DNA of 64,000 nucleotides from Druceiella hillmani. Taxonomy: Eukaryota; Arthropoda; Insecta; Lepidoptera; Hepialidae. Location: positions 21,757,501 to 21,821,500 of the forward strand of contig JAYKKI010000005.1 of assembly GCA_039881145.1 (NCBI GenBank). The letters are read 5' to 3'. The notes under the pieces were generated by a model that was not told the origin of the DNA, searched no databases, and saw only the letters and a program-made list of their open reading frames with translations. Positions 15,051-64,000 of this stretch are shown piece by piece. Within the stretch, counting starts at the first letter, position 1. Every line of letters starts with the position of its first letter. The translations under genes and the position numbers were made by a program.

Positions 15051-15106
15051 AGGTAAAAACGATATCTCAATAATAAATAACAATATTTTCATCATATATA
15101 TAAACT

Positions 15107-26690: not shown

Positions 26691-26880
26691 CTCAGTGAGT
26701 GAGTCAGTCTCCGAGGACCAAATTTAATATTTTATTTTTAGATATACATCTTAGGATCTGTTTAAGCTACAGTAATGAAATTTGGTATTCTACAAGAGAA
26801 ATAGTAGTATAATACGAGATATAATTTAGGCAATAAGAGGATAACGATGGTAGGTTTAATTTTACAAATTTATCTCAAAT
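26691..26880 (+). repeat. Probable LINE 3' tail fragment
   Basis: GTGAGTGAGTCAGTCTCCGA followed by a GTTTAAGCTACAGTAATGAA-AATTTGGTATTC phrase is typical of retrotransposon tails. The assignment is by wording only. Confidence 0.4.
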
Positions 26881-27384
26881 ATGAATTGAGCTACACGGAA
26901 GTTAAAAGTGGCTCGAAACGGTTCGTGTAAATAAAACCCGTTTTTACGGGAGAATTTGTCCTGGGCACTACCAAAGGCTTGGATTCTAAAATTTTCTGAA
27001 AATTCTATTTAACGATCTTATACAAGTTTCGTCAATAATTTCAAACATTTTGGCCGACAGTATATTTTAATTTTGCCAGTAAATAAAGACAGATTTTTAA
27101 TTTAGCTTATTGTAAGATTTCCGTCAGTAGTTTCAACCTGAATTGTAATATTACAATGTACCTATTATCTATTTCTTTTCACCTTTTTAAAATTAAGCTC
27201 AGGAGTAAAGTGCGGTTTTTATTGCATTGCAGTTATTGATTTTACTTTCATAAAATTAGTCGAAACGTGATCGCCTACTTTCAATGTTTTTTAAAAATAA
27301 TCAATCAGGGTACTTTTTATTGTATTAAAATTTCACTTGGCCATCTTTTTTGTTAAACAATGTCGTACAATTAGGTAGCAGACA

Positions 27385-27476
27385 TTTTAAGTGATGTAAA
27401 TTGTGTGTATATAAATTGTAATGTGATGTAGATTTAAATTGTAATGTGAAATAGATTGAAACAGTGATGTAAATTG
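27385..27476. repeat. Degenerate short tandem repeat (TAAATTGTAATGTGA)
   Basis: Five or so imperfect repeats of GTGATGTAAATTGT / TAAATTGTAATGTGA. Confidence 0.6.
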
Positions 27477-27938
27477 CCTTTTAAACAAATACGAAAAATG
27501 ATTAACCTGCTAATTGTATGAAAATATGAGAATTCCATAATTATCAAAAGAGGCAAATAATAAATTATATTTTCCAACCTTGTTAGTGTTGTATTGAAGT
27601 CTTACAATATTTTTCAATATAGAGTCGATCTGTTAGAACTTTGGTATTATTTTTTTTGTACAATTGAATCCATTACATTATATTTTTAGAAGATGGGATA
27701 TCAAGGAAAAATAGGAATATTTACTGATGTGTAAATTGTTAGAAAGATTATTATTACTGTGCTGTGGTATATCAGAATTATTATTTCATTGTGTTTACAT
27801 CCGAACAAAAGCTTTACGAAATAGGTCGATATACCTCGATTTTGATTTTCTCCCTAAGTTTACTTAAGATACTGTATGCGAAATTGCAAAAAGTTACAAA
27901 GTAATGTGTGCTATTATTGATTCCATTAATTTAAAATA
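27477..27938. other. AT-rich non-coding DNA
   Basis: Nothing recognised up to the transposon boundary. Confidence 0.55.
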
Positions 27939-29253
27939 CAGGTGTCAGTGGCAGATTTCAATGTTTGAAAAATTGTAAAAAAAACTACACCTCTAATACA
28001 AAGTAGGTTTATTTTAACTTTATAACAACAAATGCGGATTTCATTTTTTAAAAACCTCGTTTTCCAAATGGCGGGCATCGAGTCTGACACACTCTTCGAG
28101 TCTAGCACGCATGTTTTCAAAAAGGCGTTTGCAGAGCGACTGGGGTATTCTACTGACTTCGGCTCGAATATTTTCTTTAAGTTATGTCACAGTACTCGGA
28201 TTTGTTTTGTAAAGAACGGATTTTAAGTATCCCCATAAGAAAAAGTCACATGGGCTTAAATCGGGTGACCTAGGTGGCCACGGTAAGGTACTGTTTCGGG
28301 ATATGTTTTTTTTTCTGGAAATAACTGCCGCACTGCATTCATGGACATACTAGCAGTGTGAGCTGTGGCCCCGTCCTGCTGGAACCATGTGTTTGGTTGA
28401 AGGATGGACTATTATGTAGTTCTACTCTGAAAAAGTTATTTAACATCTGGGCATATCTCTCCGAATTTACAGTTACAGTTTGGCCACGTTGATTTTCAAA
28501 GAAATAAGGCCCTATGATTGCAGATGCAGACATGGCACACCAGACTGTTACTTTAGGCTTATGTAAAGGCTCTTGATGCATTTGTCTTGGGTTGTGGACA
28601 TCCCAGCAACGAAAGTTCTGCTTATTCACATATCCTCCAATGTGAAAGTGAGCTTCGTCACTAAAGAATATGTTGCCCATCCGGGTAGCAGCACGAAATC
28701 TCAACAACATCACCTCCGCGTAAGTTTTTCTTAATTCAAAGTCAGAATCGTGTAAATCTTGAACAATTTGAATTTTATATAGATGGAACTTGAGCTTTTT
28801 TCGCATTATTACCTGTAAAGTTGTTTTCGGAATTCCCAATATCGATGAACGTGTACGCAGTGATAAACGGGGATTTTCGACGACAGAAAACATAACACGC
28901 TCGACATTTTCATCCGTGGCCAATGGTGTAGGTCCTGGCTTGGGCCTATTTAATGTTGATCCTGTAGCTTTGAACCTTGCTACCCATAACTGAATGAAGT
29001 TGATCGATGGTCCATCACGTAATCGACGAATACTGTAACGATTATTAAATCGACGGCGTGCTACAGACAGCGAAAATACACTCGAAATGTACGCCTCGAC
29101 GACAAAAGCGCGGTGCTTTCCACTCCACTGTTCCATTGCTACTAAAACATCCGCACCGCTTGCGCTTCTAACGTTGTCCCCCGCGCCCCTCTTATGTGTT
29201 GCGTTCAGAAACTATGTTTGTTCAAACTTTGAAATCTGCCACTGGACAGCCTG
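27939..29253 (-). mobile_element. Mariner-type DNA transposon with both terminal inverted repeats
   Basis: The left end (27939-27971, CAGGTGTCAGTGGCAGATTT) and right end (29221-29253, which reads CAGGCTGTCCAGTGGCAGAT inward on the minus strand) are inverted repeats of about 32 bases with a few differences. The left end is preceded by TA; the right end is followed by TG where TA is expected, so the target duplication is not intact. The length of about 1.3 kb and the single transposase frame are normal for this insect family. Confidence 0.9.
28041..29136 (-). pseudogene. Mariner-type transposase, two frameshifts and one stop
   Basis: This would be the transposase of the enclosing element. ATG at 29136 opens MEQWSGKHRAFVVEAY, followed by a helix-turn-helix region, NPRLSLRTRSSILGIPKTTL, then the first catalytic Asp in FFSDEAHFHIGGYVNKQNFR and the core phrase HKPKVTVWCAMSASAIIGPY. 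The frame breaks near 28393, and homology resumes as WFQQDGATAHTA (second Asp). A run of nine T (nine A on the coding strand) near 28306-28314 breaks it again. PWPPRSPDLSPCDFFLWGYL (third Asp) follows. A TAA lies near 28175, and the tail RLEECVRLDARHLENEVFKK ends at 28041. All three catalytic residues are visible, but the gene cannot make one protein. Its decay looks modest compared with the other relics here. Confidence 0.95.
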
Positions 29254-32160
29254 TGTATCAAATTGAATATCGTGAAGTAATTATATTCTTAAATGAGGAA
29301 GAACTCCTCTTTTACTTTCCACTATTAACAACTAAAGAAATGCTAGTTAAAAATTAAAGAAATAGCAGATTCAAAAATAATGTTACCCACTTTTACATGA
29401 TATGAAAAAAATTAGCAAATTAAATCAACGCAAGATGGCACCATGAAATTATGTTTGCTGTTCAAAGAGAGCGACGTGTGAAATGTTGCTCATATTTTTT
29501 TGTCGCTATGAGAAAGTCATCAGTATGAAACCATGGTTCTTTCACGTAATCTTTTGTCTAAACAGAATTGATGGAATAGCATCCTGAGCGTGAAGAGCTT
29601 TGAGCTCGTAAAGGCAAAAATGACTAATTACGAATAAAGTAAACCTCGAAAATATTGCTAATCGATTTTAAATAAAACTGTACCACTGTAATAGGTGAAT
29701 ATAAAGCTTATTTACTACATCACTTGAAGAATACTATTAAATAAAAACGTTGAGGACAATAGTCACTAGGGATGTTTGAGCTTCATGATGATGCACTGTT
29801 CATTCCTCAATTTTTGAAAATGTGTCTTTAATGATTTAGTTTTAATTTATTACTATTCTTCTGCAAATTAAATTCTGATCTAAGGAGAAGAAATATCGCA
29901 CCGATAAAGACCATAGCGCAATTGACAGTTTTGCTTACTTGGAGAACAAAAATTAGGAATATTTTAGGACTGTAGAAATAATAAAAGTGGCTGTTTTTAC
30001 TTTCGTCTATTAAATTGTTTTGTCCATTAAACAGAGGTTGTTTTATTTTATTGCAGGCCGAAAACCTTTGGATTTTATGAATTGAAGTCATCAATAACAC
30101 TCCCATATGAACATATAGTTAATTCTAAGTATGTTTTTATAGTGTTCATTTTATATGCATAAATTGTTATAAATTAGATTATCTAAGCTATGATTAAGAA
30201 AGGCAAGCGCGAAAGTTGCCGTATAAACCTGTGGCTACGATATTCGTAATTAATATTTTTACAAAATCGTCAAATACAGTCAGGTCTATTTCAAATGTAT
30301 TAGAGCGGGTGGGCTTCAATATTAATTGTTAATATAAAAGAAATCCGTTCCAGATTGTACATACTTATCCCGTTTGCCATAATTCTTGACGAATTCACCC
30401 TTGCCCGACGTTTGGATAACTTTCTTATTAATCTTTAAAAGTAATGGTTCAATAAGATAGGTACTTGATATATCTAATCTGTAAACTATTACACTTTTCC
30501 TGTGAATGTTCTTTTAAGCAATAGTCTTCTTATTGTAATAGAATTATAGTCGACAATAATAATGATTGTGTTTTTGTAACGTTCTATTATTGATAAACTG
30601 GCTATACTTTTTAGATAAATTATTTTTTAACAAAAGTTAAATTGCAATCAAGTAACAAAATTACTTTGGTGAGATCGTTATTTCTTTAAATGAGAAATTT
30701 TATTAAACCCAAATCCACGTTGAGAAATTTAGGGACAATGACCGTCGGTTATATCTTAGTAGCCTAGTAGTTAATATAATTATTAACATATTGATACAGC
30801 CAAAAATATATGAAGCGGGTCAAGTAATACAATTTTTTCTTGCCGTGGTGATGATAAATTGGACATTTGAATACTGATTTCTGAATGAACATCTCCGCTG
30901 GATTTGTGTAGCATTTGGGAAAACGTTTTCAAAAAACCATTCCAGACTGGAATATTAGAGAAACTCAGAGGGGTTATAAGCACCTTTAATGAAAATAATA
31001 TAAAATTGCAAAAACGGATAGGTTTTAGATTTTCCACAAAAAATATATTTATCACTTTATTAATTTTACTTTATCACTTTTTAAGAAAACAAATTAAAGG
31101 ATTAGAGATACTGCACTGGAAAACTGAAATTATTCATGAGCATGTAAAATTTTACAATCATATCACATTTATTTTTAAACCACTCAAAAAATTGAAATGT
31201 GTGTTATTTATTTTTCCTGTATCTTTCTGTAATAAATTTAAAATAGTTCCTTATTAAAAAGGTTTAAGATTAGATGTTCATTTAATCTTCTATTATAAAC
31301 AGCATCATGAAGTTGAATCATACAAGAAACCTATTTGTTTATCGTCATTTTTTTTACCCAGAAAATAAAGAAAGAAACCATTATATTCAACAATTGTTAC
31401 TCAATAATTTCTAAACAACGTTTATGATCTTAATCTTTAATATCCACTTTAGTTAATAGAAACAAATATTATTTTTTACATTCCAAATAGTCTCTGCAAT
31501 TGTATTTTATTTGTATTAGAATCAAATAAACAGTTTACACTAAATATTGTGTTTACTCACCATATATCATACACATGAAACACATATAATGACTTCAGTG
31601 TTCAATACAGTAGTAATTTATGTCCAATTCTAAGAAGGTACCATAATTTAATTAAGCAAAAGTTTGATTAATTACCGCTACTTCGGCTTAATTACGGTGG
31701 ACTTGCCTCATAACTGGCGTCCGTCAGATGATCGCCGATGCATAGCCGAGTGTAAATACATGTACGTTATCTACTCGATTTCACAATTAATCATTCCGCA
31801 CTGAATGTCATGAATATTTCAATATCGACGCGGTCGATCGGCTCCGTACTACATTAACACATTCAGTGCCCCCTGTGAAGTAAAAGTTCAACGCCGGACT
31901 CGGTGATTGATTTGTTTTTGAATTATATTTATTTTAAGTGACAATACGACGTTTTATAAAATGTACCGGCTAGAGAATGTTGCATATAAAGGAAAATATA
32001 TTATTAGGGTTGTTCCATTGAGAGCGCATGTTTGTAATTTTTGTAGCTTATGAGAAATATCACTAGATCGGTCATTAAACACGGTCCGAATTTATTAAAG
32101 TGAAAAGTGTTATGAAATTCAGATTTAGTGGAATAACGGAATTAGATCTTTCAAACATGT
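29254..32160. other. Non-coding, no gene recognised
   Basis: Contains a 90-codon minus frame (30783-31055) and a 117-codon plus frame (30904-31257) that overlap; neither shows a known domain. A more balanced patch at 31670-31900 (CCGTCAGATGATCGCCGATG) has no long frame and may be conserved non-coding DNA. Confidence 0.45.
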
Positions 32161-32710
32161 GGATAGTGAGCTGGGATACTTGTATGGATAGTGCGCTGGG
32201 ATACTTGTGTGGATAGTGAGCTGGGATACTTGTGCGGATAGTGAGCTGGGATACTTGTGTGGATAGTGAGCTGGGATACTTGTGCGGATAGTGAGCTGGG
32301 ATACTTGCGTGGATAGCGAGCTGGGATACTTGTGTGGATAGTGAGCTGGGATACTTGTGCGGATAGTGAGCTGGGATACTTGTGCGGATAGTGAGCTGGG
32401 ATACTTGTGCGGATAGTGAGCTGGGATACTTGTGTGGATAGTGAGCTGGGATACTTGTGCGGATAGTGAGCTGGGATACTTGCGTGGATAGCGAGCTGGG
32501 ATACTTGTGTGGATAGTGAGCTGGGATACTTGTGCGGATAGTGAGCTGGGATACTTGTGCGGATAGTGAGCTGGGATACTTGTGCGGATAGTGAGCTGGG
32601 ATACTTGTGTGGATAGTGAGCTGGGATACTTGTGCGGATAGTGAGCTGGGATACTTGCGTGGATAGCGAGCTGGGATACTTGTGTGGATAGTGAGCTGGA
32701 ATACTTGTGA
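32161..32710. repeat. 25-bp minisatellite, 22 units, with 7-unit higher-order period
   Basis: The unit is GGATAGTGAGCTGGGATACT plus TGTG[C/T]. Variants TGCGT and GGATAGCGAG occur as adjacent pairs at units 6-7, 13-14 and 20-21, and the T/C pattern of units 4-10 repeats in 11-17 and 18-21, giving a 175-bp higher-order period. Because 25 is not a multiple of 3 and the unit lacks stops on the minus strand, two long minus frames (222 and 227 codons) run through it; these are artefacts, not genes. Confidence 0.97.
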
Positions 32711-34639
32711 GTTAGGAAATCGTACAAAAACAACGATGAACAATAGGTAGAGGGATTGTAAACATACATAGCTGAGACAAGAGCAAGTAGGGATAGCGCA
32801 TCACGCAATATACGAGCTGTCGATTAATTTCTTCCATCTCGCGGTCTTTAGAAAGTTTCCGATAGCCACACGCTGTTTTCGTTGAGGTCGGGTGTTTGGT
32901 ACGGTACGAGTTTGATTATCCATTGACGTTAATCGGACATTTTCAGCTCTGTTTGGCCATATGACCCGACATTCTGAAACTGAAACTGTCTCCCTAAATG
33001 GCCACAAGTACTGTTAAATATTCTAATATCTTTAAACGATTCAAATTGATGACTTAAAATTACTTAATACACCAAATTATTATTACCTCGTTAATCGTCG
33101 GTCTCCAGAGGAGAAAAGAGATGGTTAGGGTTGACATAGGATTTATAATAACAAAAGCTATCCAACTATGTTTTAACCTTGAGGTTATAGCTGGTGGTTG
33201 CTGAGATAAGTTTTCAGCGTTTTCTTGTTTATATATCTTGTTTACAGTTTTATTTATGAGATTATTTATGAAATATATTCGCATCATAAGTTACGCTGTT
33301 GCTGAAATTCGAAGGGTTTTTGTTTGAAAACACTTGCTACTTGTTTCCTTTCTTTATATTGGAATACAGTAATCAATCAAATGTTTACATACGTAAAATG
33401 TTTAAAATAGAAATCTTTTTCAGTCAACTTTAATGAAAAGTAAAAGCCACTTCGATTTTTCCTGATAAAATAACAAATAATCAAAACGAGTACTTGTAAG
33501 TAATTAAAAAAAAAAGAAAATAAAAAACGGTCGTACCGTTTTCCATTTTCTTCTTTTTAAGGGTCAATAACGTATTAGGAAAATATTATGTATGTATTAT
33601 GATTGTATGTATGACTCAAAAGTTTTGATTTTAAGAAATGTACAATCAATATTAGTTTTATATAATTGCGCTTATAAAATTAGTTATGAAAAAGAAAAAA
33701 AATATGCATTGACAAATAATATATTGGTTAGATTAAGATTTTCAAAATTCAAGGTTTGAAAATTAGAGGACGAAGGCGGCATTGTACATTATTTTGAAGC
33801 TTAACATGTGCTAATAGTCACAAATGAACATAGAGAATAGAGCTCCAATTTTGTTTTGAAAAATCGTTCTCATAATGGAGTGCACAAAAAAATTTTCAAC
33901 TACTTTAGGTGTATTATATGTTCCAAGCATGTGGTTGCAAAATTTTATGCACGCAAGTCTAAAACTATATAAGATTTGAGGCTGTGGACATTCGATAGAT
34001 GGAGGAACATGACGAAAATATAAGGTTACCTTGTTTGCATGATGGAACATAAAACACATAGTGACAGATTCTAAAGTCCTGAAGATGCTTAATATTTCGC
34101 TTTCTACTAAATAAACAATTTTACTATGAATTTAGTCACAAAAATATACCATCGTGACGTTCATTATTAAAACGTCTAAGTTTGAAATCCGTTCTTTGGG
34201 ATTTTTTCAAGCGAGAGATATTCTTGCTCGTGTAAATAATGACAAATTATTACTTTTTATTTTGCTTCTGATATGCTTCTACTCAAAGTACTAAAGAATA
34301 TAAAGTGCAAGTTAAATATAAAAGTGTCCATTCAATTAAGAAATCCATTAAAATTAAATCCCTTTTATGTTAAACCGATAGAAACCAACGGAGAAGAAAC
34401 AATAAAGAAGACAATTGAGAGAAAAGCGTAAAGATAGGAGGAAGCTTACATCACGCTTAATCCTACATAACATATTGTCTGCTAAAATAACACAAAATTA
34501 CAGAAAGATAAAAACATTTAATTCAGAACAAATTATTATTTTTTGCGTCATTGTCGTCAAAATAGCACACAGCTCGTAGAACACCACACCTAGTAAGTAT
34601 TAACGTAAATATAATTTAATAAATGTCTGACGGTAAGTA
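32711..34639. other. Non-coding, no gene recognised
   Basis: 32800-33010 has balanced composition and a 68-codon minus frame without a known domain. A 75-codon minus frame at 33060-33287 could include a donor-like GAGGTAAT but has no family. The rest is AT-rich. Confidence 0.45.
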
Positions 34640-34905
34640 TTAACATCTCACACAACGATCAGCTCAAAGTGACCGAATAGCCACGGCTGCATCGTATAGA
34701 GTGCGCTGCCGTCCGCACCATTTCGGCCGTCGTCGCTCGAGTGGGGACTTTCTAAAAGCGGAGCCGCGCGCACCAGCGAGCGTGTTGGGGCAGGTCGCGG
34801 GTCGTCGCCCTCGCGGCCAGCGACCCCCGCGGCCCAATCCCGCCACCTATGTGTCACTACCGCTAGCCGAGGTGGACGAACTTTTTACAAATGTATTATG
34901 ATATA
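34640..34905. promoter_or_regulatory. CpG island-like block
   Basis: From about 34690 to 34860 the sequence is GC-rich with CpG every few bases (GGTCGCGGGTCGTCGCCCTC), the sharpest composition step in the window. Three overlapping frames of 60-69 codons on both strands are R/P/G/A-rich from composition and unrecognised. A promoter/first exon or a conserved element is likely; foreign DNA cannot be excluded. Confidence 0.4.
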
Positions 34906-35602
34906 GCCGGCTATAAAATTATACTGCTGAAGTGTATTATAGTTATCTCGTACTATAAGTTTACACATTTTAATGTATCACAGCGAGCACCGCTGAAACG
35001 GCCGTTGAGGCCGATTTGGTTGTTTTAGTTTAAGTAAATGAGTAACGGGCTCGAGTGATATTGCGTTGTCGGTTGAAATAATCAGAGATCGGCTCTGAGA
35101 CAGAGCGCTGATTTAAAACGATAAAGCGACGTGTATGGAATGGCCCGTATTGATATTGTGTTGCGTTAATTGAAATTATATTTGTAAGCGTATGGGCGTA
35201 ATTGTAGCCCAGATTGTATACTGACTTTTTATCACTGTAGTTTATCTCGGGTCCGATTAACTTAATTGCAGATTGTCGCTTCTAATAGTTGCTTTGAAAG
35301 CTTTGATTTATTTTAAACGAAGCATTTAAATAAATTAAATATTAATAAACTTACGTCATTTGGAAACTTCCACAGCCTTATTTAGAATTGTTTGAAGCAC
35401 GGAATCATTAAAGAGAAATTGTTATTTTGTCATGACAATTTAAGTATAATTATGTTGGACAGAAAAACGTAACGATAATAATACAGTGTATTGTCGTACT
35501 AATGCAAAGAAAATTGCGTCTCAGATAAAGTGGGCTTTCCTTTAAGATTCAAAGTGAATATGAAATAAACTGTGTTATAATATTGAATTGGCTTATAAAC
35601 GT
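34906..35602. other. Non-coding, no gene seen
   Basis: 34980-35170 stays moderately CpG-rich (CCGCTGAAACGGCCGTTGAG), as a flank of the island; beyond it the DNA is AT-rich. Confidence 0.45.
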
Positions 35603-35699
35603 TTAACCCTGCTTTTTGGTTTTTGGGTACCCAAGTGCCCTATTTTGGAACTTTCCTAACTTATGCCCAATTAAAATATATTTCCTAACATATTTTAAC

Positions 35700-35921
35700 A
35701 AATGAGGTCTTTAGCTGTTTTATCAGTAGCCGCTCTATGATCTCCTTCTGTTTCTGGGAATTGTAATCTAAATCAAAATAGCGGCCAGAATGAGGTTCTT
35801 CTTCAAGATCATAGTCCTCGTTCTTGAACTTCTCGAATCAAATTCTTGCAGTCCCGTGGGACACTGCCGACTCGTTCATCATATGACTCATGTTATTTGT
35901 AAAGGCGTTCGTAACGTGGCC
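35700..35921 (-). pseudogene. Mariner transposase N-terminal relic
   Basis: The minus-strand frame reads GHVTNAFTNN at its start, then NESAVSHGTARI, a TGA, and FEKFKNEDYDLEEEPHSGR. This is the second helix-turn-helix region and linker of mariner transposases (family pattern VSxGTARRWFEKFKxGDxxLEDxPRSGRP), with the conserved Trp changed to a stop. The catalytic domain is absent. TTAACCCTGC about 100 bases downstream (35603) begins unrelated sequence. It is a different, older family than the element at 27.9 kb. Confidence 0.8.
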
Positions 35922-36077
35922 TAAGTGGATCGTTAAGTAGAAGTGTCTGTTCTAGATGTCCATTTAAATCCATTTGATGCAATGTATTTAAATGTTTATC
36001 GCTGACTACCATTAGGGTGCGTACTTCGGTCTTTGTAATAAAATATTTTGGGACTTTCATTAATCTTTTTAGAATAC

Positions 36078-36078
<1 letters not shown>

Positions 36079-36170
<92 letters not shown>

Positions 36171-36176
36171 CATATT
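36079..36176. repeat. (TA)n microsatellite
   Basis: Alternating TA, interrupted by ACATAT and TTTATA; frames across it are artefacts. Confidence 0.97.
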
Positions 36177-38244
36177 ACAAAAATTATCTCAGCAGTGGCA
36201 ATAAGTTTAAACGAAATCGAAACGACGCAAAGAATAGAGCACTCTCATACCGGCTTTCATAGTAAATCTTTTCATCGAAAATACGTGTTCGTTAAGGCAA
36301 TAATGGGATCGTATCTGAAATATTAAGAGAAATTGCAAACTAAAATTACGTCTTACGTTAATGTCGTAAAATTATGTCTTACGTTAATTCGTCGTTAAAA
36401 CTTTTCTATTAATGTGAAGAAGACATAAGCTAACAGAAACAAACGACGTATAAATTAATTCATAAACCTTTTATTACATAGACATTTTTATAAATACTCT
36501 TGAAATCCACGAATGAAATGTGTTAGGAAGAAAAGAAAATCACGAGAAGGAGTACGATCGTATATTGGAGCACTCAACGTATCTAATCATGAACTGAATT
36601 TTAAGACCATTATCATAATAGATCACATTGTACATCCCGATATTTTGAATTTTCAAGTGTGGGTGTGTACCAATTGTGTATACTGAATTATTGATTAAAA
36701 TTCAAGAAAAACTGTTGTAAAATTTTCCCTAGTCATACGCAGATATATTGAAAGGATGGTAAAATTGGAGTTTACGTTCCTTTTTGATCACAGTTATTAA
36801 TTTTTGGAGACTATGCTGACTAAAATTGGATTATCACTACGTATTATTGGGTAGAATAAAAACCGTTGCCGACTTAATTTACATGGTGGGACTAAATTTT
36901 TTAATAACCTGACACGTTATTTCGTGCATACCAAATCGCCATTCCTAGATTTGTTGTATTTTACTTGTTTTTTTAATGCATTTTGTTATTTTATTTAAAT
37001 TTTAGAGTAATGTTTTCTGAATGATGTTTTGTGGATAATCTACCAGACGAAACAATTAGTATATCTGTTTTGTGTCGAAGGTATTAATTTTAATTTGTTT
37101 TTCTGCCTAAAAAGCTTATTAAACTATCTCGTGATTCTTTTAAATTAGAAGTTTCAAAAGTCACGAACTATTTTTACCATTCGCACAACACAACATGCAA
37201 ACATCCTGTAAAAATTGTTATCCAAGAACATTAGCAATATCGAACTAATCGACCGGAATGTTTGTGAGTATTAAATTTCAATATATTAAATTGAATCACT
37301 GTTTAACTTACGTAGATTACATATTGAGATTTTTTTGGGTTATGTTTCTTAGAAAAATAAACGAATTAAAATTTCTATATTTAATTCTCTTTTTACATAT
37401 TGTTTTCCATATGTGCTTTAATAATGATAGATTGTCATTATACAGTTTAAAATAGTTTAATAACAATTTGACTTTTCAGACTTGTAAATAAGCTTCAAAT
37501 TGTTGCAATTATTCGAGAATACAAATTAAATCATCTCCACTACCGAAATATTAGTTTTGCAATAATCTCATTCACATTGTTCGTTCTGACGAATGAACAA
37601 ATTATGATATCAGTTGAAAAAAAATGTCAAAATAAAAAAATAAATACTCTTCACTATCATATAATACAAACCTAAGAAAATTTAATCCTGTGACAAAAAT
37701 TCTATTACACAATATATTTTTGAATCATTACGATTCTTCTTGGATGGATTTTGTGGAACCTCACATAATTCTAATAAATGAAGAGTTCCATAATTCAGAA
37801 ATGGTTGCTTTGTGTATAGATTATGTGGAATATGAGCAATTATATGAAATTATACAATAATTTTCTTCAAGTTTTAACAGATTGGAATTATCCAATCGCT
37901 TTGATCATAGTCTGACAGCGCTTAGGAACGACTGACCTTACAGAAGATGCAAGTGGAAAAAAATCATGCATATAAACATTAAATAGAACGATTTATTAAC
38001 ATTTTATGCAACGCATCGACTTATCTAATAAATAAAACAAGTAAGCAAATATTTATTTATGCATCATGTTTATGCGATTCGAAACAACCTAATTCAGAAA
38101 TTCAAATGGATGCCGCCGTATGCAGGCTGGCGTGGGTAATGCATCGGTTCTGCAGTTCTGGGCCGTTGAACTGCGCAGCCTTCACTCTTGGTACATAGGT
38201 ACTCCATTTATACGGAAGGGAGCCACGTGATTTTTACCAATAAA

Positions 38245-43505: not shown

Positions 43506-43543
43506 ACATGTTCATTAATTGATATTGAGCATATATATTATAG

Positions 43544-43660
43544 AATCTTTGCTAATATCCCACCTGAAGATATTGTAATACAACGAAACCTAGGTCGTGG
43601 TAAAGAAATTAAAGAAAGTAAAAATAATACTACATCACGTAGTTTCATTTAATTGTGGAT
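43544..43660 (+). other. Candidate exon-like open segment
   Basis: After an AG at 43542-43543 the plus strand reads IFANIPPEDIVIQRNLGRGK, then EIKESKNNTTSRSFI and a stop. The first half does not look AT-driven, and CGTGGTAAAG could be a donor. I recognise no family, the acceptor lacks a pyrimidine tract, and no linked exon was found. Confidence 0.2.
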
Positions 43661-44911
43661 ATATATTATAGATAATTATTTTCAATACATTTAAATTAAT
43701 ATTTTCTTAAGTAGTAAAGTTAGAGATAGGAATATTGCTAGATGTGTGTGTGAAAGTACAATATGGTACAAATTAATAAAATGTGAAGTTAAATATTGTC
43801 TGCATTGAAGTACCTAACCTGTCTACATTGAAGGGGAGAAAGGTGATTGGCATACGACTTTTTGTAAAGTCAAATAATATTTATTAATTCAAATATATGT
43901 TACATTACAAAAGTTATTACATAAATTAATCTCATAGCTTTGGAGTTAGATGTGGTAAATGAAAACGTACTTCAATAAAAGTAGTTCAATAACTAAGTGA
44001 ACATTTATTCGTGTACCGCCCTTTTGTTCTACCTGTACTACAATTTTAATTATGATGACGAGGCAAAATTTTAACATTACAAAAGATAATATCTATAAGC
44101 AGACATACATACACATATGTACATGAAGCATACGTCGAAAGGATGGATATTTTTAAAATTATTTGATTTAAAGTGTTCTGATTTCGTTTGTATTCTTTAT
44201 TACTGGCGGTCTAGTGTGTCTGAATTATTTTTGTGAAGTTGACATCTAACTTTTCTAAGCATTTCTTTTCTTAGCTTGATCGTAGGGAGTCCAGTGACCT
44301 GATTTATTTAATAGTTGGATATTCTTACTTGGGTTCATTTGAAGTAGCATACGCCTTATGTTTTAAAACTAGGCTGTCACTCTTAGTTCGCGAATGTCAC
44401 AAGAAAACCTTGATTAAGGAAAAAATAAATTATTTGAATAATATTAGTAATATGAATGATATTGTATTCAATAAAATATCAAACAAAACATGCTTGATAG
44501 TTACTGATATAGTCTAACGTCATTGGCTGATGTGATTGTAAAGCAAAATTGAGTTTAGATAATTTACACAAAGACATATGTTATTTTAGTCCATCTCCAG
44601 CTTTCATTATGCGAGCACGATACTTGAGGTGTCATTTGTTTTGTCGTTTTGCGCTTTAATAAATATATTCTCAGCACTTAGTACTAATTAAGATATTGTT
44701 TCTTAAATAGTGGAAATTTCCTAAAAATTCCAAAATATGCATAACGATCACTAGATTATAGAAAACGATAACAGAAAGAAATATTGAAAAAAGTGGAATC
44801 CGGAAAGATCCAGATGTTCGGTGTTGAGCATCAATGGTCTCGACACATCGCTTCAAATTTTAAACGTCAATCAGCCAAAATAAACCATTGCCTGATATAA
44901 TTCTTACTCAC
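43661..44911. other. Non-coding or intronic, no exon recognised
   Basis: Frames at 44329-44517 and 44671-44856 are unrecognised. If the enkurin gene continues, its last exon or exons should lie here or further left; I could not find the expected C-terminal enkurin sequence. Confidence 0.4.
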
Positions 44912-44979
44912 CTTTTAGCCATACTGACGCATTGATTTTAAACCAATTTTGAGTATTACTATTAATTTCTCTATATTTT
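44912..44979 (-). pseudogene. Putative third exon of the enkurin-domain gene, with a stop
   Basis: On the minus strand, GACCCCAG precedes and AAAAGGTGAGTAAG follows a 68-base segment. Joined in phase to the exon at 45987-46145 it reads NIEKLIVILKIGLKSMRQYG, then TAA and Lys. Its spacing fits the next part of the enkurin domain (pattern eLxxeLxxLPlxxdTlR). The stop would truncate the domain. Another frame of the same DNA is open for about 66 codons (includes RRVVDPRKYREINSNTQNWF), so the exon could be misassigned, the locus could be decayed, or the base could be an assembly error. Confidence 0.3.
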
Positions 44980-45986
44980 CTGGGGTCAACAACACGACGT
45001 AACTTAAGATTCTTTGAAAAGACATTTTGGTTTTGAATTAAAACAAGTCGGTTTTTAGTACGTTTAGTTATTTTTCTTGTTTCATTAGCACGTGTTATTC
45101 AGAAGTTAAGACCATATAACCAAATAAAAGAAACCCGTGTATATTAATCTTACTTTGATGTAATTTAAGACGTTCTCAGTCTACTACACTTGATTAAATT
45201 TACACATTGTAACTTAAGGTGTTTGCACTGTTTTCCTTATTTACTTCTTTTATTTATATAATTGGGCAACAAGTCAAAGCTGTTCTACTATATCTAAGTT
45301 ATTCAGTGACTTTCGTTTACTTTCAGTTAATGAATCCGGTTCAATTAAACGGTTCCGATTGACAAATTCAGTGTCGTTTTTGATGGCGGAAATTCTTTTT
45401 TCCTTGCCTTAGATTGCAATATTTAACCTCATACTTCTAGCATGGATATTGCACCACCATTTTGAATGTATTTCTGAAGCTTAATCGATTCGAATATTAA
45501 AATGATTTACCCTTTTCGTTTTTTGTCCAAGTTTTTGATAATATGACGTGCTTGAGAATTTCCATTTTCTTAGACAAAAATTAAGTAAATACGGAATGGT
45601 CAAGGACACATAAGGATGGAACTCTTAATCATTTTGCTTATTTTGCGGTTTGCTCCCTGGTGTGATACCTTTTAGGAAAATGGAGTATCTTTTTGGTTTT
45701 AATTATTAGGAGAATATTTTAATCTATTATTCCATATTATTAGTCAGTTCTTATTATTCTATAGTCATTCATAATGATTATTATTAGAACTGCAGTCTTA
45801 GAGTTGTGTACTAGTTTTGTTTAAGTTTTGTTTAGTTTTGTTTATTTCAATACTTGTTCCTGTATATGAATGTGATTTTATAAATTTATAAATCCCTTTA
45901 TTATGCAAAATTCGCTTTTAATTTCTCAGGAAATTACATGACAAAAAAAACATCTCAAACACTATGAGGAACATTCGTCAACTTAC
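44980..45986. other. Probable intron, no feature
   Basis: AT-rich DNA between putative exons. An imperfect hairpin (CAGTTCTTATT and its inverted partner) lies at 45745-45792. Confidence 0.4.
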
Positions 45987-46145
45987 TGTTTCGAAGCATT
46001 TTTAAAGTTTCTTTTCTTTCATTATCGGGTAAAGTTATGCGGCCAGGTGGACAGAATGCTAAATCAGCTTCATCTTTGTTTTCAGCTTCTTTTTGCTTTT
46101 CTTTCCTTACTCTTAAGTATTTGGGAACCACACCTTTTTGATAAG
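45987..46145 (-). CDS. Enkurin-domain protein, internal exon
   Basis: The minus-strand exon is bounded by an acceptor ATATTTGCAG and a donor CGAAACAGTAAGT. Its length is 159 bases: 2 + 52 codons + 1. It encodes YQKGVVPKYLRVRKEKQ, an acidic linker, then CPPGRITLPDNERKETLKML and RN. This is the first half of the enkurin domain (pattern GxVPKYLxxRK ... PPGxxxLPxxERxxTLxxL). Enkurin-domain proteins bind calmodulin or tubulin-associated partners and are found in cilia, sperm flagella and centriolar/spindle structures. The CPPG...ERxxTL form looks closer to ENKD1 than to ENKUR, but that is inference. Introns on both sides are about 1 kb. This is the only host gene I can name by domain in the window. 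Confidence 0.85.
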
Positions 46146-47157
46146 CTGCAAATATAAATATTATATACAGAATTTGTCACTGTTGAAACAGTGAGTATCC
46201 ATTACTAGCTGCAATTAGTTGCGTAAATATATTTTGATACCTTGGTTTTATTAAATTTTGAAAGTAAATTAAAATCAATCTATTCATATTGAGAGGTATA
46301 TTAGAAAGCTAATATTGAGTTGTAATTTTTGCATAATATATATCATATTAATAAATAAGAAAAACAATCCGTATATAATTATCAATGAATTCTTACCCCT
46401 ATTTATCAGTTAATTACACAATTATTAGTCAATTAAATTTTAAGTTAATTACTCAAATAAGGAAATAAAAAAACAGTCAATTACTTACTTATTTGAGTAC
46501 TAGTTTTATTTAAGAGCGAACATTGCTTCCAGTGTCAACGAATTTTGAGCAGTACAAATATAACGGTGAAAGGATTCGAAAGTCTTCAGTCAGGTAAGTG
46601 AAATTACTTTTAATATTGACCGTATAATTTTTCGTACAGTTGGTGTGTAATTTAGCCAGATTCATTTTAGATTCACTTCAAAACTGGTAATCTAGTTAGA
46701 TCAACAGATAAATAAAAAAGTGATATGACTTAATAGTTACATTGTATAATAAACTTGAATAGCTTTCAATTGGCTTTAGTTAAAATGGCAAATTTTTCCA
46801 AATAGTTCTCATATGGGCTGGTACCGCGCTAATATAAGAAGTCAGTTATGTTGATGTTTCAGCATTAAGTACAACTATAAACCTTTATTTTGTCGTAACA
46901 TTTGAGGTTATTGATGGTCATGCTATATTTTCTAGTTAAATGTAACAAAATTGTTGCAATGTATCATTTGTTAAACCTCAAGTACTACCTTATTATAAAT
47001 TCAGCCGTTATTCACGGCTTCGCCCAAGTTGAAATAATATTTCTCAGGAATAAAATTATCATATGTTTATTCCTTTGGCACAAGTTATATATACACTAAA
47101 TCATGATGATGGATTGAATATTTGAATCGTGAAAGAGGAACAAATAAGTAAACTTAC
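46146..47157. other. Intron of the enkurin-domain gene
   Basis: Contains an inverted pair (TTACTCAAATAAGG and its reverse complement near 46489-46502) and a plus-strand donor-like TCAGGTAAGTGAAA at 46593. A 65-codon plus frame (46902-47099) is unrecognised. No other feature. Confidence 0.45.
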
Positions 47158-47209
47158 TTGCGCTTTTATTATATCGTTCCTGGAAGAAGGAGCAACTCTT
47201 ATGATAATC
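47158..47209 (-). CDS. Enkurin-domain gene, likely upstream exon
   Basis: A 52-base minus-strand segment lies between acceptor TTAGTTTGCAG and a strong donor GCGCAAGTAAGT. It reads DYHKSCSFFQERYNKSA and ends with one base that, joined to the next exon's two leading bases, makes Thr and continues into YQKGVVPKYL. The splice phases agree and the junction (QERYNKSATYQKGVVPKYL) looks natural for the family, where a short lysine-rich helix precedes GxVPKYL. It would start in phase 0. A candidate preceding exon with compatible phase is 48212-48264 (EKSRNKGSFSPLSKY), but its donor GTGAAG is poor. Signal peptide, start codon and promoter were not found. Confidence 0.5.
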
Positions 47210-55851: not shown

Positions 55852-57072
55852 CTAGTCTAATCTTAATTAAAATTGAACCGACCCTATATATATAATATAT
55901 AGTATATGCAAAGGAAGAGTTTCTTCTTTTCTATTTTCTCTGTGTTTTGATGTCTTTAAAATAGCCATTAAAACCATCACATTTATGCTGATGGATTGCT
56001 AGCTTAGGCAAATTCTGAAGTTTATTAAACTTTTTTAGGGAGTGTTTGTTTTAACGGGTTGATAGTTTTGGGGATACTTAAGAGAGCACTGTGATGAAAC
56101 TATTTATATATTAGATGATTTGGATGAAGATTTTTATTCATCACTATGCTTAGATCTGTCATATTATATGTTGGAAATTTTATGGCACTGAACACAGATT
56201 CATAAAACCTTATATGGAAAGTTCTCTTTTTTCTATTTGGGGATTACCTGGGATATGAGGATTTTTTAATTTTTAAAAATGTGCTTTGACTACAGGATAC
56301 GGATTATTATAACGAAGACGCGTTATAGAAATATTCATCAAGAATATAGCCCCATTTGGGACCTCGATAGTTTATCGTAAATTTTTCTATAAATATTAAG
56401 ATTTTTAATTCTAACCGCAACAATTGTTGGCTAGTAATCTGGCTCTTCTTAATGCCAATACATTATCAGCGTACACGTAAAAGTCAATGTTCTAATATTT
56501 TGTGGAAACCTTAGGATAAACTACTACTATCATAATGTGCCATATTACTATCATTAGTACTTTTATACTGTTTTAAGTGTACATCTTTCAAATCTAAATT
56601 GTGCACACGGAAGACTTATTTATTAAGTGAATGTGAACATTTTTATTATTAACATTTTTTTGACTATTTATCCACTCAAAAGTTTCAAGTGATTCTGCTG
56701 AATATATTCCGAAGTATTTTTGTACAAAGCCATTAAATTTCTTGTAACTGTACAACGTCACGAATTAAAAGTAAGAGAGCGCACAATCAGCCAGCAGATT
56801 AAATGGTAAGGTGGGTTGGATTAAGTTTGAAAATTAGTCTTAGACAACCGGCAGCGTTTCGTGAATCTTTTGGATAATTCTCCGACCTATTAAAGTTAGA
56901 ATCTGCTAATGAGAGTCGATGATGTTTAACATAAAATGGTTGGTTATGGATGGCGCTTAATAAACTTTGGAATTTGTCTAAGCTTGCAAACTATCAGCAT
57001 TAGAAAGAAACTCTTCCTTTGTATATGCTAACTCTAAGGTCGGTCCGATTTTAATAAATATTAAACTATTAA
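55852..57072. mobile_element. 1.2-kb segment bounded by long inverted repeats
   Basis: The left arm (55852-56035) and right arm (about 56950-57072) are inverted copies: TTAAAATTGAACCGACC against the reverse of GGTCGGTCCGATTTTAA, then GGAAGAGTTTCTT, then a TGCTGAT block and GCTTAGGCAAATTCTGAAGT against the reverse of ACTTTGGAATTTGTCTAAGC. The left arm has an insertion of about 60 bases relative to the right. The interior has no transposase frame. It could be a non-autonomous long-TIR element or two oppositely oriented copies of one dispersed repeat. Confidence 0.65.
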
Positions 57073-57788
57073 ATAGAGTATCTGTGTTTATTAAGACAAA
57101 GTATTGGATATGTGTAAGTCCCAACAGATGCAAATGCATAGTATTCGAATTAACACTACAAGTAAACTACTAATATTTAATTATTAAGCATCAAGAAACT
57201 TCGTAGTCGTTCGCCTCAAGCAGTTAATGAAGCTGAAAATAGATAGTTATGGGATATTTTAAACTTCCAATGATCTAACCCAACATGAAAGTCAAAGAAA
57301 TTTTTTGTACTTTTGGAGTCCGGAAGCACAAAGTTTATTTATAGCCATGCGTTTATATTGAGTGACCTTAACATTGGAGGTATCGTGACTAATTTTAAAC
57401 TAGGCTGCCTATTGATTTTTGAGTGTTAAAAAAGGAAATTCGTTGGTGTGAATAATGTGTTTAAGGGCTTTGGAAAGTAATAGAATGGAAATAGTTTCGA
57501 AGACTTTCGGTTGTGCAAGTGAAATAATTTTAGATTTTCTCCTTCATTAGTATTAAAACTGAAGAGAAAATATAAAGAAGTGAACGATAAAAACTTAAGG
57601 AGTTACGTATAAAAGTGTAACTGACAAATAACTTTTCGTTCATACCATATGATGGACGTTTCATAAATATTATAAAGTTCCTTATTAAATCATAAAATAT
57701 CTACCAGTTTAGTGAGACATTTTTTGTTGGAAAAAGCGATTTTCAGGTTCAGCAACGGCTCCTATTCAGGACTCTCTTCTTTTTTAGG
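57073..57788. other. Non-coding, no gene seen
   Basis: Nothing recognised; the segment near 57710-57785 is less AT-rich and leads into a strong acceptor-like site. Confidence 0.45.
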
Positions 57789-57878
57789 CTCTTGCGGGGA
57801 GACATGTAAGGAAGAGAACTTTAGGGATATATCTTAAAAGTGTTGCTTTCAAAAGCTGGTCATCTGATACAGGCTGGT
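57789..57878 (+). other. Exon-like segment after a strong splice-acceptor match
   Basis: GGACTCTCTTCTTTTTTAG is an excellent acceptor. The next bases are open in one frame (ALAGRHVRKRTLGIYLKSVA, then FKSWSSDTGW and a stop), with CAGGCTGGTGAAAA as a possible donor. No family recognised and no partner exon found. Confidence 0.2.
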
Positions 57879-60409
57879 GAAAAGAAAATATACAAATTTA
57901 ATTAAATACAATTTCTATTCCACTATACAAACATATCACTGAAATAGGAAAATATGTGCGCAAAATTTGAGAAGTGCCTATAGATCGAAGATCGAAGAGA
58001 ATATTTTTTTTTAAAAAATATTCTTAACATTTCAAGAAATACCGTGAATTATGAATATATCGTCTAAAGTAATTTTCCCAAATAAATATTTATTATTTAA
58101 TGATGTGTAACATTCGAAATATACTTCTTAACTACTAAGAATAACTTTAATGTACATGGCAGCTAATATACGAGTATTGTAGTGTAAGTTTACCAGAAAG
58201 ACATGATATGTACGTTTTCGGGTTGCGTAGTTAAACAAAAAACTTTTATAATTTCGTCATGTGCGTTTATCCATCTTTCACAGTTTTTAAAGTTTCAGAT
58301 TTGTGTGCGTCAAATTTTAGGAGTAAATGCTTCTTATGGAGATCTAAATAAATACGTGTTTGCGACAAGCGTTAAAAAATATATATTGTTTATTTTATGC
58401 ATTTCACTACATAGAAGCGCATACCGGTATTACATGCAGTATCATAGGTTAGGGATTTTAAAATGATATTGAGGTTTCATTTACCATATTTAATTTTGTA
58501 AGTCCCACTTGCGAAATATTGAGCTTTATAGAAAAATGCAAAATTCTTCCTAATTAGTCAATCGTGAATTATATAATATAAAATTACGTAAATTAATCAA
58601 ATTTTATGAAATTAACTTATACAGATAACTAGAAATAGTCATATTAAGGCGAAGTCATCAGTGGATGAACACTTAAAGTAATTAATTCTCAGTGAGTTCT
58701 CATTGACGAAAAAGGCTGTACTGAATTATTCAGACTGCTGTATGTATGTATGAATGTATCCTACATTCATGTAAATTACTTTATTCAGAAGGATGATTAT
58801 TTAAAAGTAACATTTTTATAATCATACGACAGTAAATAGCATAACATGCTAAATGTCTTTTTTCGCATTTAATGAATAGCAAGATTCCAATGAAGCAACA
58901 TGATAGTTCAATAAATAAACGTTTTCTTCATTCACATGTAATATATTTTCCACAATGGTAATAAAAACGAACTAAGTTTAAATAAGAAATAGTAGTAATT
59001 TGTATAAAGTCTTGCAAATTGTTAAAAATGAGATTTTCTAAAACACAAAGTGAGAATTATATTAAAAAACGTTAATGAAAAATCTTGGATAATAAAAATT
59101 CTAGCTTTTATAAATATGGGCTTCAAAGTAATAAATAATAATACTCAGATCCTTCAGTAATAAAGTCAGAAGAAGATGCAGATCCTGCGATATTACCACA
59201 ATAGTCACAGTGAGCATGCGACTATGACGTACTTTAAATTTCGTCATGAATGGGTGGATCCTCAGATCATTGGATAAAATTTCATTCTCACCGCTTTATA
59301 ATTTTTTTAAGTCGTTGATTTTCTTCAGTTTTCTTACTTTGGACCTGAAATTTCTATGTTATCGCTTTTTCTTTTAATATTCTTTATTTTTCCTTTTTAC
59401 GTTCTTTGATAATAACGCGTAAATGAATTTTAACGTTTCCTTTTCTTTTCAATGGTCGTAGCGTTTGTTTTTTTTTGGTGATGTTGGTGCTTAGCCTAAT
59501 CCCATTGTTAGTTGTCTATATTTTTATCATATTTTTAAGGTTCATATTATTCGTCTCGTTAGACAATGTAGAAGTTATTAGATTTTCCTTTCGACATATT
59601 ATCACAGTATTCATAATTGATAAAATCGTCTGCTTTTCTTTATCATGTATTAGGCAATAAAGAATAATTTTATCACAGTCTTTATTAAAAAATATTTTAT
59701 TAGTTTTTCTTATAGAATCAAAGTTTTTTAAACGAACCATAATATTATGTTTTTCATCTTGTAACATTTCTTCAAGGTTTTATGGGGAAAAATCCCAATA
59801 CTGAAGTAGAATTATGTACATTGCGTTTAGTTTCAAAGAGTATGTTATACTATTTTCAGCACAAAACGAAAAAGGAGACTGAAATGTATTGTACCCTTTA
59901 CTGCGTTAAAAAAAGTTTTTAAATATCGTCTATTCATTCTCTGGACGCCCATATTATCTGAAAAGTGGTTATTATTATTATAATTATCTATCTTAGGTAA
60001 TCTAAGGATAATTTGTGCTGAATCTTTGAAGATCTGTCGCACTACAATCCTAGCTTTTGATATCTTTCCAGATTTCTTTTTACTATTTATTGATAGCTTC
60101 ATAGAAATAGAACCCTGTTACCTGAAGCCTGTTATCGATAAAACGGCAAAGTCACGAGCACTCATTTAAAACTTTTTCTATAGAACCTTTAACGTCCTTC
60201 GCTTGCATTGGAAAAGCGAAAGCCTTTTTAATAATCCAATTTTTAACCTTTCATCTTTCAGCGTTGATTGAAATTCAAGTTAGACTCGTATTGCGACCGA
60301 AACTCAATTTTCATCCTTTATAAGGTCCTTACCACTCTTTTTAAGACCGTTTTACTCGTAAACTATTGTACTATAAAGTTGAAATTTCAGTCATGGTTAT
60401 ACATTTTTT

Positions 60410-60410
<1 letters not shown>
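57879..60410. other. Non-coding, no gene recognised
   Basis: A plus-strand run near 59143-59212 reads SDPSVIKSEEDADPAILPQ and a stop, which looks protein-like but has no support. Frames at 58203-58466, 59475-59767 and 59845-60102 are unrecognised and AT-driven. Confidence 0.4.
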
Positions 60411-60460
<50 letters not shown>

Positions 60461-60470
60461 ATATATATTA
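60411..60470. repeat. (TA)n microsatellite
   Basis: Alternating TA with one TTTATA interruption; overlapping frames are artefacts. Confidence 0.96.
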
Positions 60471-60599
60471 GTAATATATTTACATATTTACACGGTGATA
60501 AATAATGTTATTTTAATATGCACCGCGTTTTTAGGTTTGCGAAATATACTGTATGCAATATATTTATATTGTGATACATCTATATTTGTATATAATTTA

Positions 60600-60700
60600 A
60601 TATAAATACTATGTACCCTTAAATGTTTATACGTGCCTAAATGTGTACGGAACCCTCACAGTACGAGTTCTACTATTGCTTCACAAGTTTTTTAATTATT
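60600..60700 (+). repeat. LINE 3' tail of the TACGGAACCCT family, best copy
   Basis: AATACTATGTACCCTTAAAT, GTGCCTAAATGTGTACGGAA, then CCCTCACAGTACGAGTTCTA, ending T-rich. It matches 39.4 kb (minus strand) over at least 50 bases. Confidence 0.75.
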
Positions 60701-60814
60701 ATTTAAATATGATTCATCACGCTATTTTAAATTCATTACGTCGATTTCGTGTTATTTTCTATGTCCACAGTGGAACGAAGAATGGGTAGATTTTTTACGA
60801 AATAATACATTTTT

Positions 60815-60925
60815 TATGTCTGTCTGTCACTTAACGCCCTTGTTTACAGGAGTCTAAATGTGTACGAAATCCCCCGTAGTGTGAGTTCTACTCGCACTTA
60901 CCAGATTTTTTTTCTTAATTACAAT
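60815..60925 (+). repeat. LINE 3' tail of the TACGGAACCCT family, second copy
   Basis: TGTCTGTCTGTCAC, then GTCTAAATGTGTACGAAATC, CCCCGTAGTGTGAGTTCTAC and CGCACTTACCAGATTTTTTT. This is the fuller right-hand part of the tail (GTAGTGCGAGT...CTCGCACTTACC). Confidence 0.75.
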
Positions 60926-62200
60926 TTATTTAATCTCAAAGAAACGAGAATTCCATGTTTGCATACACGGTTGTGAAAAGATTCGTAATTTTCCATTAGT
61001 TTTCGGGTCCTTTAAAGGGTTACTTTTATAAAATACGTAAACTGTTTATAACACAATTTAACAAAAGGATCAGTTTCGTTTTATTTTTGTGTTCAACGAA
61101 CTTTTGCCCTGTTTTATGAAATATTGAAAATATTAAACTATAATAATTAGAAAGTGGCTCATGAAAAGAACTATTAAGTAGTAGATGTGATAATAACAGA
61201 TAAAGAGTCAATGTTGTACGTCCATTTTCCAACAGTGCATGTCTCCTAGTTCTCTCGTTTAATGTTTTATGCAACCAAAACTTACAATACACGATCTGAA
61301 GTCCATTTGAAAAGACGGTGGTAAATTATAAACAGTGGTGGAAAAACTTTAAATTTATGATAGAAATATTATATTTTAATTAACAAATACTTATTACAAC
61401 TAGTCTGAACTTTATACCAAGCCAGGAAATAAAATCAAATTGGCAATTTCCCCCATACCTCCAATACGAACCATGTATTCATAATTATAATAATACTTAT
61501 GGAAACTTAAATTAAATTAAATTGTTTAAAGTGGTTATTAGGTCCATGTTTCAATGAAAAAGACTATTAAGGTAAAAGAGAAAACGCTGTTCTCGAATGC
61601 TGTTAGAACAAATTTATGAGTCAAGAGATTACGAAATCTCAAACAATCTGAATTTTCGTTTATTTTGTGTTAAGATATAAAGGTAAAGGTCAAGAAGTTG
61701 GTGTTTAAAATACTTTAATTAGTATACAGATTATTGAAGACTGTATGCAATAATTATTTGCAGACTATGTAGTTTATATTTATATAAATTTTTTCTTAAA
61801 AGATTCACTTCGGATTAGTCCAAATGAGCAAATTTTAAATTTTTCCGGGCGTGAAATATCTCAACTGAAAAGCCAAACGATGTCAAGCATCATTCTATAT
61901 TTTCTCGTAAAACTTATTATTTTTCGTTGTCGCGTTTCACTGATTAAAAAATACTAACTTCGCGCGATGAAAGGGATATGTGAAATGGGCTCTGCAGCGA
62001 ATGTGTTAAACGTTTTATTAACTTCAGATTCACGCTGCGCTGCTTATCAAACAAAAGTTTTTTTTTCAGTAATAAAATTTCCTTTCTTGATGCACTTATC
62101 AAAAATTCATCAAAATTTTCAGCTTGATACAATAATTAATATTGGCCTGAGATGTAGGATAGATTTCATAAAAAATGATGTACATACATATATTCCAATG
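60926..62200. other. Non-coding, no gene recognised
   Basis: An 88-codon minus frame (61026-61292) and overlapping frames at 61944-62260 have no recognisable family. Confidence 0.45.
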
Positions 62201-62204
62201 ACGG

Positions 62205-62252
62205 CATTTTGGCTATTTTTAGTGTTCCGTACCAAAATTGGCAATGAAAAAA
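62205..62252. repeat. Possible LINE tail scrap (TTTTTAGTGTTCCGTACC)
   Basis: Resembles the TTTTTAGGGTTCCGTACC phrase that ends many insect LINE copies. Short, so tentative. Confidence 0.35.
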
Positions 62253-64000
62253 ACTTATGAAATTACTTCAATATCCATCTTTCTTAGAGAACTGAAACCC
62301 AAATTAAAAAATGCATAATTTGTTTTTTCATATAAATTTTTTTAACGCTTCCCAAAAAAGCGCTCAAAAAGACCCCATAATAGTATCGCTCAATAAACTC
62401 TGAAAAATGTTGCGAATACTGGAAATGACACGTAAACTGAATTAAACATTTATAGGTTTGCATTACCCCATTCATTCTTTTTCACAAAAAATGAGTCCGG
62501 CGACAAACTTTCTTATGCTGTTTGATTTCGTTTTTATGTTAATGGTATCAAACTGCAGAACGAAGTTTAGGTTATCAGTCAGTTATAAAAAGAAACATTT
62601 CCAACGTTAGAATAGTCCATTCGATCCAAGTTAAATTTGTTACAAAGTTAAAAATGTTCGATTTGATCCAAGGTTATTTTAGGTAACGAAAATAAGTGTA
62701 TTAATGGATTAAGTAAGTGTATAATTGGATAAGTAAAGTGTATTACTCTTACGATGAATATTATAAAAATTCGGCTGTTTGGAGCCAATAGTTAACATTC
62801 GGTACGCTGTTGAACAGATGTTAATAAATTAACAATTTCATTAATTAACAAAAAGTAAAGCAATACTATCTCTGTACTCTTTTTGATACCCGTGATTCGA
62901 CAAAAATGAAAATATAATAAAGTTGAAAGCGAAAACTATGGTTTTAGATTTTATAAACAAACAGGCTTTCAAACTTAAAGATACATTTTTATCATACAAA
63001 TATGTAAAATCAACATAAAAAAAACAATTGGTCTTAAAGAACGATAATTATGCAATTACGACTTGCCTTTGATGATTTTTTTCACCCCACCTCTAACTGT
63101 CCCGTTTTATAATGATAGGATGTTATGTAGCAGAAATGGGAAATTTTTCATCACATTTTCTTGCTATGGGATAGTACGATGTTATAAAAATATAATTTAT
63201 GACTACTTGAGTGGATATGTACTTCTTGATATAAGTTAAATTGTATTATCTTGTCTATCCTTTTGATTTTCAAACTCAAAATAGTATTCAAATTTTTCCG
63301 TACTTGGTCATAAATTACATACGATATGTTTCAATACGATATATTTCAGACATAGTATTGTCTGATTTATCTTGAAGTAGTTTGATTTTAATAGGCATTT
63401 GGTTAATTAGTTAAAATGTTTTTTGATTACGTATCGATGTTGAAAGATGTAATATTTTTGATATATTTAACTGAAATATTTAAGTAAGATTATATCTTGT
63501 TTTATTTGCTGTAATTATATAGAAATATTCGCCTAACTTTGCCGGCAATTCATTGTTCTTTTCTATAAAAAGTATAGTTCCGTGTCTAGACCTGTTTTAT
63601 ATTCATATAATGACTTCATAATAATTGTATGTTTGGCGGTTGACGGCACGTTCATTTTTATTTTTTTATAATGCATGATGTAAGTTTGCTAATAGATCGT
63701 ATAGAAGATTAAGTTCAAGCTGAAAGTGGCACAGAGAGTATTGGATAGATCTTTGTATCTATTTACACCTTAAGAATATTACGGTTGTAGTGACAATTAG
63801 CAAGTCCGCTTGTGAGATCAAGAAATTATCAGGATTGCTGTTGAAGTTTTAAAATTATTATGTACATAGAGTACAGATATAAATGGAAATTAAGGTTAAA
63901 TGTTTGTATACTTGATATTAAATGTGTTTAGGTATGTAAATTAAAAATTATACTGGTTTTGTATAAATATTAAAATTATATCGAATGTTTGGGAACTATT
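62253..64000. other. AT-rich non-coding DNA to window end
   Basis: A degenerate AAGTGTATTAATGGATTAAGT-type short tandem lies at about 62693-62745. No gene or RNA recognised. Confidence 0.5.

Follow-up and report, generated by a model that had tools for sequence, protein, structure and literature searches.

A probable stray copy of the ENKD1 exon 3 region on the contig of the intact gene in Druceiella hillmani

An enkurin exon in the window

The window analyzed here is a 64,000-nucleotide stretch (C5:21757501-21821500) of contig C5 of the Druceiella hillmani genome, an assembly of 2,586,002,920 bases (2.59 Gb) in 181 contigs. On the minus strand of the window, at C5:21803487-21803645, lies a short open exon that is preceded by TTTGCAG and followed by GTAAGT, and which the sequence-only reading had described as an exon with canonical splice sites and an enkurin-domain signature. 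The translation begins with YQKGVVPKYLRVRK and ends with CPPGRITLPDNERKETLKMLR, and the reading of the exon in a single frame is YQKGVVPKYLRVRKEKQKEAENKDEADLAFCPPGRITLPDNERKETLKMLR. That description was borne out. The search of the exon translation against Pfam family PF13864 (Enkurin), which the same reading had proposed, gave a match with an E value of 1.5e-6 and 29 bits, above the curated cutoff of 23.6 bits. A profile built from relatives gave the exon 87.5 bits, compared with 4.6 bits for the next-best stretch of the window and a maximum of 7.7 bits in 20 dinucleotide shuffles. Because the exon lies above the Pfam cutoff and scores far over both the rest of the window and the shuffles, chance is ruled out and the stretch is, by sequence, a real enkurin exon. 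It spans only positions 1-45 of the 92 in the PF13864 profile, that is, the first half of the domain; neither the second half nor, accordingly, the complete domain with both helices of its C-terminal hairpin was found in the window.

Comparison with known enkurin proteins supports the earlier assignment of the exon as closer to ENKD1 than to ENKUR. In a search of the PDB with the 51-residue exon, ENKD1 was found at E 1.7e-4, and up to E 10 no ENKUR chain was returned, the sole other chain being a non-enkurin protein. A profile of three insect relatives matched ENKD1 at E 2.2e-32 and the best ENKUR at 8.2e-7. Judged by these scores, the window exon is of the ENKD1 type, encoding the first half of an ENKD1-type enkurin domain, and is clearly nearer to ENKD1 than to ENKUR/FAP106, the axonemal enkurin and microtubule inner protein.

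A protein search, the insect comparison that had also been proposed, found 213 relatives at E ≤0.001, the best 120 of which were examined. The named sources among these 120 are mainly moths, butterflies, wasps, ants, cockroaches, and termites, and several bear the name "enkurin domain-containing protein 1-like." One wasp record among the 120 bears the name C16orf48, an older name of ENKD1. Since such relatives are annotated across many insect groups, the family is already well known in insects; a literature search found nothing joining "enkurin domain-containing protein 1" with "insect" or C16orf48 with "centriol." In an exon-only tree (90 rows, 55 columns), the exon fell outside the rows of Lepidoptera and of Hymenoptera, with no starred branch.

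The borders of the exon were compared with 121 proteins. A DPYLPSG-like stretch occurs in these at 80 places, 55 of which continue into YQKG, while the other 25 either stop or go on differently; an intron at exactly this point would produce such a pattern. The sequence MLRNS or MLKNS is found in 53 proteins, of which 51 continue into the last-exon sequence and two (P0053 and P0080) into other sequence. The start and end of the window exon coincide with these two border points, and its borders and phase are the same as in moth ENKD1 models.

The intact gene and its partial duplicate

An Enkurin family search of the whole genome reported two exons that encode the last half of the domain, one at C5:21467700-21467858 on the minus strand and one on contig C49; the window exon and the exon 3 described below are both missing from its hits, and its result cannot be read as a count of first-half copies. 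The second of these exons, at C49:12045135-12045290 (locus L001, 1453-1686, plus strand), lies on a separate contig and, compared by eye with human ENKUR, is presumably ENKUR-like. The C5 locus also contains, beside this last exon, an exon 3 of its own. A gene model assembled from tblastn matches and splice signals within 50 kb round the locus revealed a four-exon ENKD1 gene at C5:21474319-21467676 on the minus strand (loci L003 and L004), with 346 codons, no internal stop, and three AG/GT intron pairs (Table 1). The encoded protein contains a whole Enkurin domain (83.9 bits, profile positions 1-92), with the second half of the domain provided by exon 4, and across residues 1-346 it shows 54-55% identity with the eight best-scoring relatives listed. 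All parts of an ENKD1 gene, namely the start, the N-terminal exon 2, the enkurin domain, and the conserved C-terminal end, are thus located together at this locus, which presumably still makes a microtubule- and centriole-associated enkurin-domain protein.

Table 1. Positions of the intact ENKD1 exons (contig C5) and of the copied segment and its flanking features (window)
Feature	Position	Strand	Remarks
Intact ENKD1 exon 1	C5:21474319-21474286	minus	34 bases
Intact ENKD1 exon 2	C5:21473764-21473078	minus	687 bases
Intact ENKD1 exon 3	C5:21468782-21468624	minus	159 bases
Intact ENKD1 exon 4	C5:21467836-21467676	minus	161 bases
Duplicated segment (ENKD1 exon 3 with adjoining pieces of introns 2 and 3)	45841-46483	minus	Source C5:21468480-21469137, minus
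Exon 3 copy	45987-46145	minus	159 bases, open frame; phase 1 at both ends; both splice signals (AG, GTAAGT) intact
22-base direct repeat, sense-5' side	46493-46514		TTGAGTACTAGTTTTATTTAAG on the plus strand; 20/22 identical to 45804-45825
22-base direct repeat, sense-3' side	45804-45825		TTGTGTACTAGTTTTGTTTAAG on the plus strand; probable duplicated target site
A-rich tail between homology end and repeat	45826-45840	minus	Part of a three-fold AAACAAAACT array

The window exon shares contig and strand with this gene, whose start codon lies ~329 kb downstream of it. When the window was compared by blastn with the 50 kb that surround this gene, the sole long match was a segment of 643 bases that contains the exon (88.2% identity over 669 columns, 37 of them gap columns). 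The seven other rows consist of two weak matches and five of a short dispersed repeat, which lies at 43535-43694 in the window and matches at 83-96% identity. Base-by-base alignment reveals that homology to the source stops inside both introns. Neither exon 2 nor exon 4 turned up in the window, whether it was searched with the profile from relatives or with the intact protein, which matches exon 3 only; exon 1 was not found either, but its 34 bases are too short for exclusion by a protein search. The copy is without a start codon, exon 2, second domain half, and stop codon, and in place of the start, exon 2, domain, and C-terminal end joined in one unit, it holds one exon of four with intron edges, the complete gene being elsewhere on the contig. 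On this alignment, the enkurin stretch in the window is a partial duplicate of the exon 3 region and no gene.

These data bear directly on the claim of the sequence-only reading that a spliced enkurin gene is hidden here, with an upstream exon at 47158-47209 (minus strand) and, in the fuller form of the idea, more exons outside the window. The exon is open, its splice sites are intact, and the phase of the donor at 47158 fits it. Moreover, in the nearest 1.3 kb, a phase-fitting candidate with a GTAAGT donor arose in only 4.5% of 200 shuffles (17.5% for any GTRAG donor), which favors 47158-47209. Over the 17.9 kb upstream, however, there are three phase-fitting candidate exons with GTRAG donors, compared with a mean of 4.5 in 100 shuffles, and the proposed upstream exon resembles neither the relatives nor the intact protein: its 17 residues match the 120 relatives over at most 4-7 residues (best E 1.7), and the protein of the intact gene, compared with the window, matches nothing there. 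Nor did the claimed extension of the gene down to 44912 find support, as the open frame at 45098-44907 shows neither a Pfam match nor meaningful similarity to ENKD1. Given also that the intact gene possesses its own exon 3, and that the exon in the window sits in a partial copy whose homology ends within both introns, we regard a functional hidden gene at this site as extremely unlikely. The 64-residue frame at 44907-45098 (minus strand) has a protein-like stretch, NLKLRRVVDPRKYREINSNTQNWFKINASVWLK, and a GTGAGT donor, and is possibly a fragment of another gene or element.

A reading of the locus as a single ENKD1 gene with introns of tens of kilobases, in which the window exon would be joined to the exon 4 match ~335 kb downstream, had arisen because the window showed no exon 1, 2, or 4; it is ruled out by the exon 3 that adjoins exon 4 at the intact locus. 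Indeed, it was the comparison within the genome that located the complete ENKD1 gene and exposed the window exon as a stray copy. The case serves as a caution: in a multigigabase genome, a gene call needs more than a lone exon, even one that matches Pfam, keeps a conserved phase, and has good splice sites.

Ends of the segment and possible routes of insertion

Both ends of the copied segment are flanked by features that suggest how it may have arrived. A pair of imperfect 22-base direct repeats (20/22 matching) brackets the segment, and on the sense-3' side the repeat is separated from the homologous sequence by an A-rich stretch. This stretch belongs to a tandem array at 45813-45844 with a period of 10 and 3.0 copies, within which the last 13 bases of the 45804-45825 repeat also fall. 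When random pairs of flanks with the same spacing were drawn from the window, 1 of 3,000 scored as high as the repeats, though this pair was possibly the same place, which was not excluded from the draws; and because one of the repeats overlaps the A-rich tandem array, the two are less independent than this count suggests. Together, the repeats and the A-rich tail, which are not wholly independent of each other, look like a target site duplication with its tail, although 22 bases is long for the target site of a retroposition event.

The copy retains sequence of both intron 2 and intron 3, where a processed retrocopy would have had its introns removed, and its source would consequently have been either unspliced RNA or DNA. 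Partial gene duplicates and retroposed gene fragments are similarly truncated, lack start and stop, and show direct repeats and an A-rich tail; in contrast to these, the window copy carries intron sequence and does not come from a fully spliced mRNA. LINE-type retroposition of a piece of unspliced RNA and templated repair of a break appear to us about equally probable as the route, since templated repair can leave the same end features as a target site duplication and the two are indistinguishable here.

The direct repeats and A-rich tail would also fit capture of the exon by a Helitron-like or SINE-like mobile element present in many copies, with the segment as its cargo, and the genome, at 2.59 Gb, is presumably rich in repeats. 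Yet all but ~25 bases between the repeats align with ENKD1. In addition, just two copies, and no third, were found in a search that took in the window together with 250 kb of C5 (21458001-21708000) ending 49.5 kb short of it, a sample far too small to exclude a low-copy element. Such an origin seems to us very unlikely.

Rather, the window exon is very probably a stray copied fragment of ENKD1, inserted on the same contig, most likely dead, and ordinary in kind. According to this model, a piece of ~650 bases, comprising the end of intron 2, exon 3, and the start of intron 3, would have been copied and inserted ~329 kb upstream, with the insertion probably duplicating a 22-base target site and leaving the A-rich tail. 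The four-exon gene would have kept the production of the protein, leaving the copy to drift neutrally.

Divergence of the copy and its surroundings

Between copy and source, 39 of the 475 intron bases that align are different (8.2%), while the exon differs at 7 of 159 bases (4.4%) and contains no gap, a difference in divergence that is not significant (Fisher P 0.16). Read as codons, four of the seven exon differences alter a residue (E/V, V/A, S/N, and H/R, source first) and three are silent. Two of the altered sites were counted across 93 of the 120 listed relatives; the remaining 27, which do not show the pattern used for the count, were dropped. At the H/R site, where the copy has R, H is found in 92 relatives and Y in one. 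At the E/V site, where the copy has V, the relatives show E in 62, D in 23, A in 4, and M, K, V, and N in one each, so that the state of the source (E or D) is shared by 85 of the 93.

This divergence fits that of a neutral copy, and the fragment is probably drifting neutrally. Some observations stand against a dead fragment: the exon is open, its splice sites are intact, it is gapless against 37 gap columns in the whole alignment, and one of the 93 relatives also carries V at the E/D site. The lower divergence of the exon (4.4% compared with 8.2%) would also fit weak constraint. However, with half of that 8.2% assigned to the copy, 159 bases should carry about six or seven changes, and we infer that the open frame is no sign of use.

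The intact splice sites, GTAAGT donor included, together with the open frame and the gapless exon, could likewise be taken to mean that the copied exon has been exonized into another transcript whose remaining exons lie outside the window or have gone unrecognized in it. This we consider very unlikely, as Pfam recognized no host gene in about two thirds of the six-frame window, and a near-invariant site has been altered in the copy. There is a small, though less slender, chance that a splice-competent exon with its intron edges, moved by retroposition of unspliced host RNA, could join a new transcript; if true, the locus would show exon shuffling at an early stage in an insect with a giant genome. 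As a stray copy, too, it is a splice-competent exon fragment of measurable age, given by the 8% divergence of its introns, and is useful for the study of exon movement.

On the plus strand, the Pfam scans covered the window except for one frame of 1-14700, the greater part of 14701-16599 and of 26502-36397, and all of 56100-64000; on the minus strand, they covered 1-16599 for a lesser part, mainly as single open frames, and the rest in full. Beside the exon, the scans found transposase-like frames (a paired-box match of 22.2 bits, cutoff 22, and DUF4817) and sub-threshold matches, while searches of the whole window for tRNAs and with Rfam (gathering thresholds) found nothing. At 14038-15020 (plus strand) lies the remnant of a Tc1/mariner-type transposase, with HTH_Tnp_Tc3_2 below its cutoff and the marginal paired-box match. 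A second such remnant, at 28339-29211 (minus strand), matches DUF4817 above the cutoff and, across 85% of its length, shares 81% identity with a protein of Parnassius mnemosyne. Finally, the window contains at 32158-32709 a tandem array of 22 copies of a 25-base unit (94% matches), which is open in all three minus-strand frames.
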